Shown one piece after another: positions 17,950 to 55,193 of a DNA stretch of 64,000 nt; positions within the stretch are counted from its first letter, which is position 1, and the number at the start of each line of letters is the position of its first letter. The notes under the pieces are model-generated. The model searched no databases, was not told the DNA's origin, and saw nothing but the letters and a program-made list of their open reading frames with translations. The position numbers were made by a program, and so were the translations under genes. Source of the DNA: Thermoanaerobaculia bacterium (GTDB lineage Bacteria > Acidobacteriota > Thermoanaerobaculia > Multivoradales > JAIOJS01); the NCBI GenBank assembly GCA_030429235.1, contig JAUIDB010000004.1:124001-188000 (forward strand). The letters run 5' to 3'.

Positions 17950-18024
17950 GGCGACGTGGCCAAGTGGTAAGGCAAGGGTCTGCAAAACCCTCATTCCCCG
18001 GTTCGAATCCGGGCGTCGCCTCCA
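17950..18024 (+). tRNA. tRNA-Cys(GCA), island integration site
   Basis: The acceptor GGCGACG pairs with CGTCGCC, the anticodon loop CTGCAAA gives GCA, the T-loop is GGTTCGAATCC, and CCA is encoded. 75 nt. Its 3' 55 bases are repeated exactly at 21862-21916, so the gene marks the left boundary of an integrated element while remaining intact. Confidence 0.97.
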
Positions 18025-21815: not shown

Positions 21816-21861
21816 CGGCTATGCTCCTTGGCCAAGGGCTATCGAAGACAGGCCCTCTTGG

Positions 21862-21916
21862 GGCAAGGGTCTGCAAAACCCTCATTCCCCGGTTCGAATC
21901 CGGGCGTCGCCTCCAA
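21862..21916 (+). repeat. Right attachment-type direct repeat (tRNA-Cys 3' remnant)
   Basis: An exact copy of the last 54 bases of tRNA-Cys plus one A. It lacks the 5' acceptor strand and most of the D-arm, so it is not a tRNA gene. It marks the right end of the island, 46 bases after the cargo gene stop. Confidence 0.9.
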
Positions 21917-21925
21917 GGACTCCTA

Positions 21926-21979
21926 GTCACCAGGCCGAAGTGTCACCAAGCCGTAGTGTCACCAAGCCGTAGTGTCACC
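21926..21979 (-). repeat. 16-bp tandem repeat duplicating the end of the glycosidase gene
   Basis: Units GTCACCAAGCCGTAGT at 21942 and 21958, a diverged copy at 21926 and a partial copy at 21974. On the minus strand the unit reads through the codons for GDTTAW and the TGA stop of the GH44-type gene, so the extra copies lie just after the stop. The unit length is not a multiple of three. Confidence 0.85.
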
Positions 21980-24154
21980 CGACTCGAAACCGTCCTGGAA
22001 GATTCTTCCGGTGGCGACCGACTCGGCCACCACCAGGGTGACGGATCGAGCGGGAAGCTCGACTGCGAGATCGCCGCTGGTCGGTCCGACGGTGCCGACG
22101 GGACCCAGCCCCTGGGAGGCGTCGAAGCGGTAGAGGAGCGAGGGCTGGTCGCCGAACCCACCCGGGGCGGCGAGGGTGGCCTCCAGGGGCACCGTGTCGC
22201 GGTTGATCAATACGATCCAGAGCGTTCCGTCGGAGCCCTCGACCCCGTAGCTTCCCAGACGCTCGGGCGCATCGGAGGTCGCCCGCACGCTGGTCCCCTC
22301 GACCCCAGTCCCGGCCCCGTCGTAGTCGAGATAGAGCCGATAGGCGTCCTCCACTGCGGTGTGCGGCTCGGGCGCAACCCAGCGGGTGGCCAAGTCGACG
22401 CCTTCCCGACCGAAGAGCGCCAGGACCTCGGCGTGGGCCAGGGCGCTACTCGCTCCGTTGTCGGCTCCCCACTTGTACTCGGTGATCGCCAGGCCGAGGC
22501 CGGGGCAGTGATCGTCGATCCAACCCCGCAGTCGTGGGATCAGCTCGACCGGTTGGGCGATCCACGATTCCGACACGTAGCTCGGATCCCAGAGCTCGGC
22601 CACCGACCGCAGCCGGCGCGCCGCCGTCACCGGGTCTTCGCTCGATGAGCCGTCGAGCCCGGCCACCCCACCCTGGGGGTAGAAGTGCACATCGAGGTAG
22701 TCGATCGGCCGCGTTCCTTGACCGGCCGCTGTGCACACCTGTTCGAGGTACCACGGGATGAGGGCCAGCCCGCCGTGGGCCTGCCGATCCGGACCGTCGA
22801 CACAGCTGCCGTTGGGGAACGCGGCATCCGAGGCCGAGCTGAAGAACGCGCACCAGCCCCAGACCACGGGTCCGAGGACCTCGGCCGAAGGGTCGGCGGC
22901 CTTGATGGCCAGCGCCGTCTCCAGGGTGCGCTCCCACAGGCCATCGTAGGTCAGCGGGGCGGGGAAGAGGTCCCGATGGGTCGAGTTCCAGAGCATCGGT
23001 TCGTTGTCGACCGCCCAGTAGCGAACGCCCCCCTCTGCCGCCGACCCGACTCGGCCCTCGAGGTGGTCGACCCAGTCCTCGATGAACTCGGGACCGATCT
23101 CCACGGCCGTGTCGGCCGGGTCGTTGCCTTCGATGAGTCCTTCGGGAGAACAGAATCCAGTGGTATTGACGGTCGGATCGCAGGTCCCGTCGCCAGAGTC
23201 GGCCGTGCACCAGGGGGGCGGCGAAGGCCCGTAGAACGAGCACTCGTCCTCGAGCTGGGGCCCGTAGGCGGCCTGGGAAAAGGCCCAGCGCTTGGCGCGC
23301 ACCCCGAGCGGGGTGTAGCCAATCGCCGGCGCGGTCATCAGTACCTCGGCCCCGGCGGCCAGGGTCTCGTCGACGAACTGGTCGCTGCTCGACCCGTGGG
23401 GCAGGCTGGTGGGGTCGGGCACCGAGTCCACGATGTTCTGGAAGAAGTAGTCGGAGGCGGTGTTGTGGACCGCCGCCTGCCAGTTGTACCGGGTCACCGC
23501 ATTGCCGCCCCAACGACGTAGGGGGTAACCGACCTCGGCCATCCGCACCGCGTCGCCGAAGTTGACTCCGTAGATCCTGGGATCGATCGGCCGACGATCG
23601 GCGCTGGGATCGATCTCGACCAGCACTGGAGTCGGCGGAGGAGGAGGCGTATCGTCGGCTACCAGCACCAGATCATCGAAGTAGAGGGTGGCCTGGTCGC
23701 CGCCGGTGCGATCCTGGAAGACCACGCCGTCGAAGAATCCGCTGGAGAGTCCCGCTGCCCTCAGGTCGAGGACCTGCGCCACCCAGCCCGCCGCCGGGGC
23801 CGGATCGAGCGGAATCGTACCCAGCGTCGTGCCCCCCAGGACCAGACTGAGGTCAACCAGCTGGCCGCCCGCGCCGCCGTGCACCGCCACCTCGACCGCC
23901 TGCCAATCCGCCAGATCCAGGGCGGTGGTGGAGTGGAAGTAGAGACCCTCCCAGTTGTCGGGTTCCCAGGAGATCGAAAAGACTCCCGTGGCCACCGGAC
24001 TCCCGTTGGCGAGGTCGTGGGTGGCCCAGCTCCAATCCTGGAACCCGGCGGCAAGCGTGTCGTCGTAGATGACGAGGTCCTGGGCCGCAGCCAGGGCCAC
24101 GCAGGATAGGGAGACCAGGAGGGCGGCCCCGAGCCGCCACCGCGGTGAGTGCAT
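21959..24154 (-). CDS. Secreted GH44-type glycoside hydrolase with C-terminal DGFESG motif
   Basis: A 731-residue protein with signal peptide 1-24 (ending ALAAAQ). Residues 25-165 form a beta-sandwich, possibly carbohydrate-binding, followed by a Pro-rich linker. From about 176 the GH44 pattern follows: IDPRIYGVNFG, RRWGGNAVTRYNW, YWAVDNEPMLW (catalytic acid/base Glu, about residue 384) and LAITEYKWGADN (nucleophile Glu, about 558). A terminal beta domain precedes the last eleven residues DGFESGDTTAW. GH44 enzymes cleave beta-1,4-glucans or xyloglucan. The motif recurs on the beta-helix protein at 40096 and may be a sorting or anchoring tag. The gene follows the island directly. Confidence 0.85.
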   Translation of the reverse strand: MHSPRWRLGAALLVSLSCVALAAAQDLVIYDDTLAAGFQDWSWATHDLANGSPVATGVFSISWEPDNWEGLYFHSTTALDLADWQAVEVAVHGGAGGQLVDLSLVLGGTTLGTIPLDPAPAAGWVAQVLDLRAAGLSSGFFDGVVFQDRTGGDQATLYFDDLVLVADDTPPPPPTPVLVEIDPSADRRPIDPRIYGVNFGDAVRMAEVGYPLRRWGGNAVTRYNWQAAVHNTASDYFFQNIVDSVPDPTSLPHGSSSDQFVDETLAAGAEVLMTAPAIGYTPLGVRAKRWAFSQAAYGPQLEDECSFYGPSPPPWCTADSGDGTCDPTVNTTGFCSPEGLIEGNDPADTAVEIGPEFIEDWVDHLEGRVGSAAEGGVRYWAVDNEPMLWNSTHRDLFPAPLTYDGLWERTLETALAIKAADPSAEVLGPVVWGWCAFFSSASDAAFPNGSCVDGPDRQAHGGLALIPWYLEQVCTAAGQGTRPIDYLDVHFYPQGGVAGLDGSSSEDPVTAARRLRSVAELWDPSYVSESWIAQPVELIPRLRGWIDDHCPGLGLAITEYKWGADNGASSALAHAEVLALFGREGVDLATRWVAPEPHTAVEDAYRLYLDYDGAGTGVEGTSVRATSDAPERLGSYGVEGSDGTLWIVLINRDTVPLEATLAAPGGFGDQPSLLYRFDASQGLGPVGTVGPTSGDLAVELPARSVTLVVAESVATGRIFQDGFESGDTTAW

Positions 24155-24234: not shown

Positions 24235-24319
24235 GCCGGAGTGGCGAAATGGTATACGCAGAGGACTTAAAATCCTCCGGGCATTGCCCTTGCGGGTTCG
24301 AGTCCCGCCTCCGGTACCA
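24235..24319 (+). tRNA. tRNA-Leu(UAA)
   Basis: A class II tRNA with a long variable arm. Acceptor GCCGGAG pairs with CTCCGGT (one G-U), the anticodon loop is ACTTAAA with anticodon TAA, T-loop GGTTCGAGTCC, CCA encoded. 85 nt. A TACAAT -10 lies at 24221-24226. Its 3' 16 bases before the terminal T are repeated in antisense four times immediately downstream. Confidence 0.97.
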
Positions 24320-24321
24320 AG

Positions 24322-24681
24322 CGCAGAATGCGCTTGGAGCCGGAGGCGGGACTCGGAAGGACTACCCGCCGTTCGGCGGCTAGTCCGAGCGAGTCTGATC
24401 ACGACGCAGACCGCAGAATGCGCTTGGAGCCGGAGGCGGGACTCGGAGGAACCTTCCGCCATTCGGCGGCTAGTCCGAGCGAGTCTGATCACGACGCAGA
24501 CCGCAGAAATGCGCTTGGAGCCGGAGGCGGGACTCGGAGGAACCTGCCGCCATTCGGCGGCTAGTCCGAGCGAGTCTGATCACGACGCAGACCGCAGAAA
24601 TGCGCTTAGAGCCGGAGGCGGGACTCGGAAGGACCAACCCGCCATTCGGCGGTAGGGCCGACCGAGTCCTGGTCACGGCAC
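24322..24681 (+). repeat. Tandem array of four 90-91-bp units carrying antisense tRNA-Leu 3' sequence
   Basis: Units begin at 24322, 24412, 24502 and 24593; the last is diverged. Each carries an exact 16-base antisense copy (CCGGAGGCGGGACTCG at 24340, 24430, 24521 and 24612) of tRNA-Leu positions 24299-24314. Each unit has a further hairpin (CCGCC-ATT-CGGCGG type, flanked by GGACT/AGTCC). The first copy and the tRNA end form a 57-base hairpin (24299-24355). Open frames through the array are repetitive artefacts. Confidence 0.93.
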
Positions 24682-54789: not shown

Positions 54790-55092
54790 CACTCAGCGAG
54801 CAGGTTGGTGGGGCAAGGGGAGTCGCTCCGAGCAGTCCTCCCTAGGAAGGGGTGCGAGTACCGGCCTCCCACCTCCGTCACAAGGCGCCCCACTCAGCGA
54901 GCCGGTCGGTGGGGCAGGGGGAGTCGCTCCGAGCAGTCCTTCCGAAGGAAGGAGTGCGACCGCCGACTCCCACCTCCGTCTCTAAGCGCGCCACTCAGCG
55001 AGCCGGTCGGTGGGGCAAGAGGGAGTCGCTCCGAGCAGTCCTTCCGAAGGAAGGAGTGCGACCGCCGACTCCCACCTCCGTCCCCAAACGCC
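54790..55092 (-). repeat. Tandem array of three 101-102-bp units carrying antisense tRNA-Leu(CAA) 3' sequence
   Basis: Units start (plus strand) at 54790, 54891 and 54992. Relative to the minus-strand tRNA-Leu they lie 3' of it, and each carries an antisense copy of its T-arm/acceptor: exact 15-base copies at 55066-55080 and 54964-54978, a 12-base match at 54866-54877. Each unit also has the hairpin GTCCTTCC-GAA-GGAAGGA (diverged in the distal unit). Sequence differs from the array at 24322, but the design is the same. Confidence 0.92.
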
Positions 55093-55107: not shown

Positions 55108-55193
55108 TGGTGCCGGAGGTGGGAGTCGAACCCACACACCCTAACGGGCGGCGGATTTTGAATCCGCTGCGTCTGCCATTCCGCCACTCCGGC
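55108..55193 (-). tRNA. tRNA-Leu(CAA)
   Basis: A class II tRNA, 86 nt. Acceptor GCCGGAG pairs with CTCCGGC, the anticodon loop is TTCAAAA with anticodon CAA, T-loop GGTTCGACTCC, CCA encoded. Followed on its own strand by the antisense-bearing repeat array. Confidence 0.97.

Follow-up and report, generated by a model that had tools for sequence, protein, structure and literature searches.

In the 64,000-nucleotide stretch of DNA from a Thermoanaerobaculia bacterium that was analysed (the window), the gene for tRNA-Leu(UAA) (24235..24319, + strand; ARAGORN, Rfam RF00005) is followed by a tandem array of palindromic units in which the main copy of the tRNA 3' end is antisense. Similar arrays occur behind other genes of the same genome and of related genomes, and they constitute a recurrent, apparently undescribed, new class of DNA repeat. 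With middling confidence, we read them as DNA-level palindromic arrays, produced by strand-switch copying with a shared module, tandem amplification and arm-to-arm correction, and not as a tRNA-specific antisense regulator.

A preliminary description of the window had reported four tandem units behind tRNA-Leu(UAA), each with a stretch exactly complementary to the 3' arm of the tRNA, and a hairpin between the tRNA and the first copy, all of which proved correct. The units are spaced by 90, 91 and 91 nt, the exact 16-nt complement (CCGGAGGCGGGACTCG) is present in every one of them, and the hairpin consists of two 27-nt arms (24299-24325 and 24329-24355) that are 93% complementary and enclose a 3-nt GAA loop. 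The copied sense arm of the tRNA is the segment from C56 to A76 (24299-24319, +). It is followed by hairpin A, the centre of the first palindrome (24320..24334, +; AGCGCAGAATGCGCT), and by antisense arm 1 (24335..24355, +), which is complementary to tRNA positions 56-76 with mismatches at 72-73. Antisense arms 2, 3 and 4 lie on the same strand at 24428..24445, 24519..24536 and 24610..24627, and the 18-mer arms of the array start at 24338, 24428, 24519 and 24610. The preliminary description did not mention the conserved hairpin module, here called module B, that lies between the antisense copies and ends in CGANTCC, the T-loop sequence in sense orientation. In unit 1, module B (24347..24398, +) is closed in its fold by GACTCG/CGAGTC and ends in the T-loop sense copy; it scored 30.4 bits with R2, a model for which only tRNA-linked modules served as training data. 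The same model assigned 25.4 bits to unit 2 (24437..24488, +), 26.1 bits to unit 3 (24528..24579, +) and 20.6 bits to the diverged unit 4 (24619..24671, +). Among the families of Rfam 15, only RF00005 (tRNA) exceeded its gathering threshold in the window and 11 related loci, all other matches being sub-threshold and of the hairpin type.

A unit is thus composed of the gene 3' end, hairpin A, the antisense arm, module B and a partial sense copy, and this order is repeated in tandem. In the case of tRNAs, the gene end of the unit extends from C56 to CCA, hairpin A begins directly after CCA, and the partial sense copy starts again at C56, that is at the T-loop motif CGANTCC, after which the next hairpin A comes. 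When 53 unique tRNA loci (including a few weak matches) were compared, the identity between antisense arm and tRNA at positions 56-70 amounted to 0.79-0.98, and the sense copy was kept at 0.85-0.90 for positions 56-62 and dropped to 0.37-0.75 beyond; generally only 56-62 are retained, and at some loci, such as the one for tRNA-Sec (L318), sense copies reach 21/21 nt. RNAfold predictions for about 40 modules gave a GGANTCG/CGANTCC stem, an unpaired spacer of roughly 6x6 nt with the conserved sequence GNGGTC / TCGGAG, and a variable hairpin. The arms vary with the anchor gene and the architecture of module B is constant. For tRNA-Gly(UCC) in 16 congeners, between-species identity was 0.93 for the antisense arm and 0.93 for the tRNA, 0.86 for hairpin A, 0.71 for module B, 0.61 for the distal sense copy and 0.57 for the flank.

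On the opposite strand, 31 kb from tRNA-Leu(UAA), the second anchor gene of the window, tRNA-Leu(CAA) (55108..55193, -), is followed by three antisense arms (55066..55083, 54964..54981 and 54863..54880, all -) that copy its own 3' end, which differs from that of Leu(UAA); the third arm has diverged at its T-loop end. The corresponding modules B on the minus strand are found at 55020..55074 (59.2 bits with R2), 54918..54972 (58.2 bits) and 54817..54868 (24.4 bits). A check of tRNA 3' flanks, as proposed in the preliminary description, revealed that 7 of the 39 tRNA genes surveyed in this genome possess an antisense copy of their own 3' end, spanning T-loop C56 to the acceptor, 15-30 nt past CCA. 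The seven are Leu(UAA) with four copies, Leu(CAA) with three, Ala(CGC) with four, Ala(GGC), Lys(UUU), Pro(CGG) and Ser(GCU), and no antisense arm was found at the remaining 32 flanks. The same layout exists behind the genes for tRNA-Sec and tmRNA (L317) of this genome. An antisense-arm match of at least 15/18 was obtained for 6 of 36 tRNA flanks, compared with about 54 of 108,000 random 100-nt pieces of the window (some of them being arrays themselves), or some 5 per 10,000, and chance is therefore excluded. Elsewhere in the genome (G000:C16:184841), a displaced copy of a tRNA-Glu 3' end carries a palindrome that has lost its centre (TTCGAATCCCGTACGGGCTTCGG), as would be expected from palindrome instability. 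The window also contains tRNA-Cys together with a copy of its 3' half that lies 3.8 kb downstream and is oriented like the gene (17950-18024 and 21860-21911); gene and copy enclose a gene for a 1161-aa TPR protein, and the region looks like a small integrative island with attL/attR.

Related genomes were scanned with R1, a covariance model that combines the tRNA arm with hairpin A and the antisense arm. Matches were obtained in 44 of the 72 genomes from the order; the figures for the class and the phylum were 46 of 149 and 57 of 396. Within the order they are concentrated in families f1, f2, f3 and f7 and are largely or entirely absent from f4, f5, f6, f8 and f9. In a genome of the same genus, the carriers are partly different (Ser(UGA) with three copies, two Glu and two Ala), and neither Leu(UAA) nor Leu(CAA) has an array there. 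At 11 tRNAs surveyed in distant named relatives, no arrays were found. The arms are gene-specific for Leu, Ala, Ser, Glu, Gly, Arg, Lys, Pro, Tyr, Sec and tmRNA, and the highest copy number, eight, was reached behind Gly(UCC) in genome G057. Several variants of the element were encountered. In family f39, tRNA-Ser, tRNA-Gln and tRNA-Ala are followed by an intrinsic terminator that includes a T-run, and only then by a full antisense arm; after the arm, a larger hairpin module (core CAGGTAG) and a sense copy follow (L325-L338), in arrays with units of 163-198 nt. The mirrored palindromes on both strands in f39 had been considered to be convergent tRNA pairs, an interpretation that was rejected because each proved to be one tRNA accompanied by a full antisense arm. 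In f13, tRNA-Asp (L322, L323, L339-L341) is followed by a terminator and then by an antisense arm with up to 18/18 matches and without module B, which may be the element in its simplest form. The module has different flanks in f69 and f40 (TTCAGG ... CTCGAATCC). No Rfam family matched the f39, f13, f69 and f40 forms. At one locus (L004, G007:C20), a single antisense arm precedes a 45-nt repeat of module B and CGAGTCC without further arms. The exact B pattern was not found in viral contigs.

One array lies behind a protein gene. In this genome (G000:C13, L393), a gene with GFESGDTGQW* at the C-terminus of its product precedes an array of seven copies with a 91-nt period, and the antisense arm of this array reproduces the final ~29 nt of the gene, with a local alignment score of 22 of 29. 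The module was detected by R2, and the outer boundary of the array, TTTGAATC, is the counterpart of the T-loop sequence TTCGAATC. Since this array copies the end of its own gene, the arms are not specific for tRNAs, and it argues strongly against a tRNA-specific role of the arrays. It is the sole protein-gene case found. When two genomes were scanned for module B at a low threshold, most strong matches were located at tRNA or tmRNA genes or copies of them, with the protein-gene array as the clear exception. In 1.15 Mb of fetched loci, a sample biased to tRNA genes, 77 long palindromes were situated at tRNA 3' ends and 26 elsewhere, and many of the latter look like displaced tRNA or tmRNA copies, insertion-sequence ends or terminators. 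Within the window, a 731-aa protein (21959-24154, -) has the motif GFESGDTTAW at its C-terminus, and the final codons of its gene recur in tandem beyond the stop (21919-21979, -).

The arrays were compared with known repeats. Like REP, REPIN and BIME elements, which are mobilised by RAYT, they are short, clustered, extragenic palindromes at gene ends, and G(T/G)AG often flanks module B. However, a REP family carries one stem sequence to dispersed sites, whereas the long stem here is copied from the local gene: the stems of the arrays differ from locus to locus and no shared stem was found. Matches to PF01797 (Y1 transposase) at E<=1e-5 were not found in the array-bearing genomes G043, G047, G057, G058 and G064, and the strongest Y1 matches come mostly from families without arrays. 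A RAYT-driven REP origin was therefore rejected, as RAYT/IS200-type (Y1) transposases do not co-occur with the arrays. In E. coli, tyrT is followed immediately by the tandem rtT repeats, which hold sense copies of the tRNA 3' end. The arrays share with rtT the tandem repeats directly behind a tRNA gene and the copies of the 3' end; in contrast to the sense copies at one tRNA gene in rtT, the main copy here is antisense and is found with a shared hairpin module at many tRNA genes, at tmRNA and at one protein gene.

Module B also resembles the attC sites of integrons in its imperfect hairpin, its unpaired central spacer and its tandem orientation, and one may ask whether B with its flanking arms is a folded, single-strand recombination site, with the tRNA as the primary site and the arrays as empty cassettes. 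The R box of attC has the consensus GTTRRRY / RYYYAAC. It was not found in module B, whose closing stem reads GGANTCG/CGANTCC and is not of the integron kind. The array units lack the ORF cassettes of integrons, their arms match the upstream gene, and the complementarity runs through positions 63-72, outside any such site. As regards the fold, attC sites form a hairpin with an unpaired central spacer and a variable terminal structure (PMC8946536), and the predicted succession of stem, 6x6 unpaired spacer, stem and variable loop in the ~40 modules is similar. Integron-like behaviour was considered because modules follow tRNA-Sec at kilobase spacing in genome G025, but these spaced copies proved to be ordinary islands in tandem, whose direct repeats span the anticodon loop to CCA; some of the copies have no antisense arm, and integron-like cassettes were rejected there. 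In that region (G025:C26:1-24000; L389/L390), about eight tandem 3'-half copies of tRNA-Sec flank islands of 1-6 kb that carry a Ser/Thr kinase and other genes, and none of the long ORFs was recognised as an integrase gene. An attC-like site is thus highly improbable. At tRNA att sites of tyrosine recombinases, the insert is flanked by a direct repeat of the tRNA 3' end; among the arrays, sense copies of up to 21/21 nt occur at some loci, but in general just 56-62 is retained, and the 91-200-nt units contain no recombinase gene. As REP, rtT and attC each fail a defining test, we call the class new; no published description of antisense tRNA or gene-end arrays was found in a search that was mostly outside the subscription literature. 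One could also view the arrays as a pure mutational by-product, with replication template switching at tRNA terminators giving rise to palindromes that tandem slippage multiplies, without a dedicated module or function. The mechanism is documented for DNA and RNA-gene hairpins (PMC8794818; PMC7202029), and the f13 tRNA-Asp form is just such a bare palindrome around a terminator. However, random switching does not predict that module B keeps its GNGGTC / TCGGAG flanks and hairpin at unrelated loci in several families, and the distribution among families is patchy, so that a mere by-product appears decidedly unlikely.

Another explanation places selection on the RNA. Here, the antisense arm would trap the read-through pre-tRNA (state I), the downstream sense copy of the T-loop would compete and free the tRNA (state II), and the array would tune tRNA maturation in cis or act in trans on tRNA 3' ends. 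In predicted folds, the helix between arm and tRNA is favoured over the cloverleaf plus trailer by a mean of 13.8 kcal/mol (45 loci), the 466-nt region has a folding z-score of -8.3, and the two mutually exclusive helices share positions 56-62, the sole retained part of the sense copy. The equal conservation of antisense arm and tRNA could also be explained by selection on RNA pairing, and the slightly higher predicted stability of the B region on the + strand (-1.3 kcal/mol; p=0.017) is a weak hint of an RNA function. However, if pairing on the + strand were selected, substitutions in the arms should favour changes that keep a wobble pair, and no such preference for G-U wobble was seen (29 vs 36; p=0.25). 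Moreover, a terminator precedes the antisense arm in f13 and f39, arms are also present behind displaced, non-functional tRNA copies, the presence of arrays at a given tRNA varies even inside a genus, and the protein-gene array exists. We therefore consider such an RNA switch unlikely. The sequestration of the tRNA by the arm suggested in the preliminary description is feasible in terms of predicted pairing, but as a general explanation it is unsupported in view of the protein-gene array, the terminators, the displaced copies and the missing wobble bias. The suggested role as antisense or decoy in trans likewise found no support as a general explanation, as the same module, in a 91-nt array, is found behind a protein gene, whose end is copied.

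Our preferred reading is copying at the DNA level. Whatever gene precedes an array, it is the end of that gene that the arms reproduce. The covariation between tRNA arm and antisense copy asked for in the preliminary description is present, with a score of 0.535 vs 0.154 in shuffles and with 83% vs 61% paired cells in the arm helix; such an excess over shuffles is expected if each tRNA served as template for its arm. The discriminator position departs from this pattern, being unpaired in 8 of 13 cases. A displaced, non-functional selC copy in G025 has a two-base change in its sense arm that is matched in the antisense arm, which pairs at 21/22 positions with its own arm and at 19 with the functional arm. 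Although a single case, this mirrored double change is what arm-to-arm correction predicts. We infer that DNA synthesis would switch strand at hairpin A, that the gene end would be copied backwards up to a (T)TYGAATC-type boundary, and that a second turn at module B would produce a sense-antisense-sense unit, which unequal exchange or slippage might then multiply. Pairing between arms, as a cruciform or by snap-back template switching, would keep the antisense arm matched to the gene, and the gene arm itself would be held fixed by selection on the tRNA. The preference for T-loops would follow from TTCGANTCC being the most frequent motif of this type next to a 3' hairpin.

The arrays display an inverted copy abutting a hairpin and co-varying arms, as in quasipalindromes, and template switching has been described as a source of such stems and as a means of their repair (PMC8794818). 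Quasipalindrome mutations and tandem inversion duplications likewise consist of sense-antisense(-sense) copies that turn at short hairpins and have similar arms, so that the underlying copying process may be an already known mutational one. Those products are known as single events, whereas the arrays form a phylum-wide, recurrent, T-loop-anchored class that has a conserved module and reaches eight copies. Because its architecture is common to unrelated loci, module B probably either serves as the target of some factor or is itself a short element that spreads. A more specific version of the DNA-level reading, which we put forward tentatively, is that of a short parasitic or host-domesticated DNA element: module B would home to the T-loop motif of tRNA-like genes (rarely to other TTYGAATC gene ends), reverse-copy the 3' end as an arm and amplify in tandem by means of a putative enzyme, and would thus have spread across the phylum.

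Long palindromes are usually unstable in bacteria; the palindromes described here adjoin essential single-copy tRNA genes, stay matched and recur across the phylum. Covariation with a tRNA arm alone is no proof of RNA function, which calls for caution in annotation. If RNA pairing were selected instead, the arrays would represent a new layer of tRNA control. If it is true that the module copies whichever gene lies ahead of it, this would be a mode of repeat birth without description in the literature searched, and the formation and correction of palindromes would become testable at dozens of natural sites.
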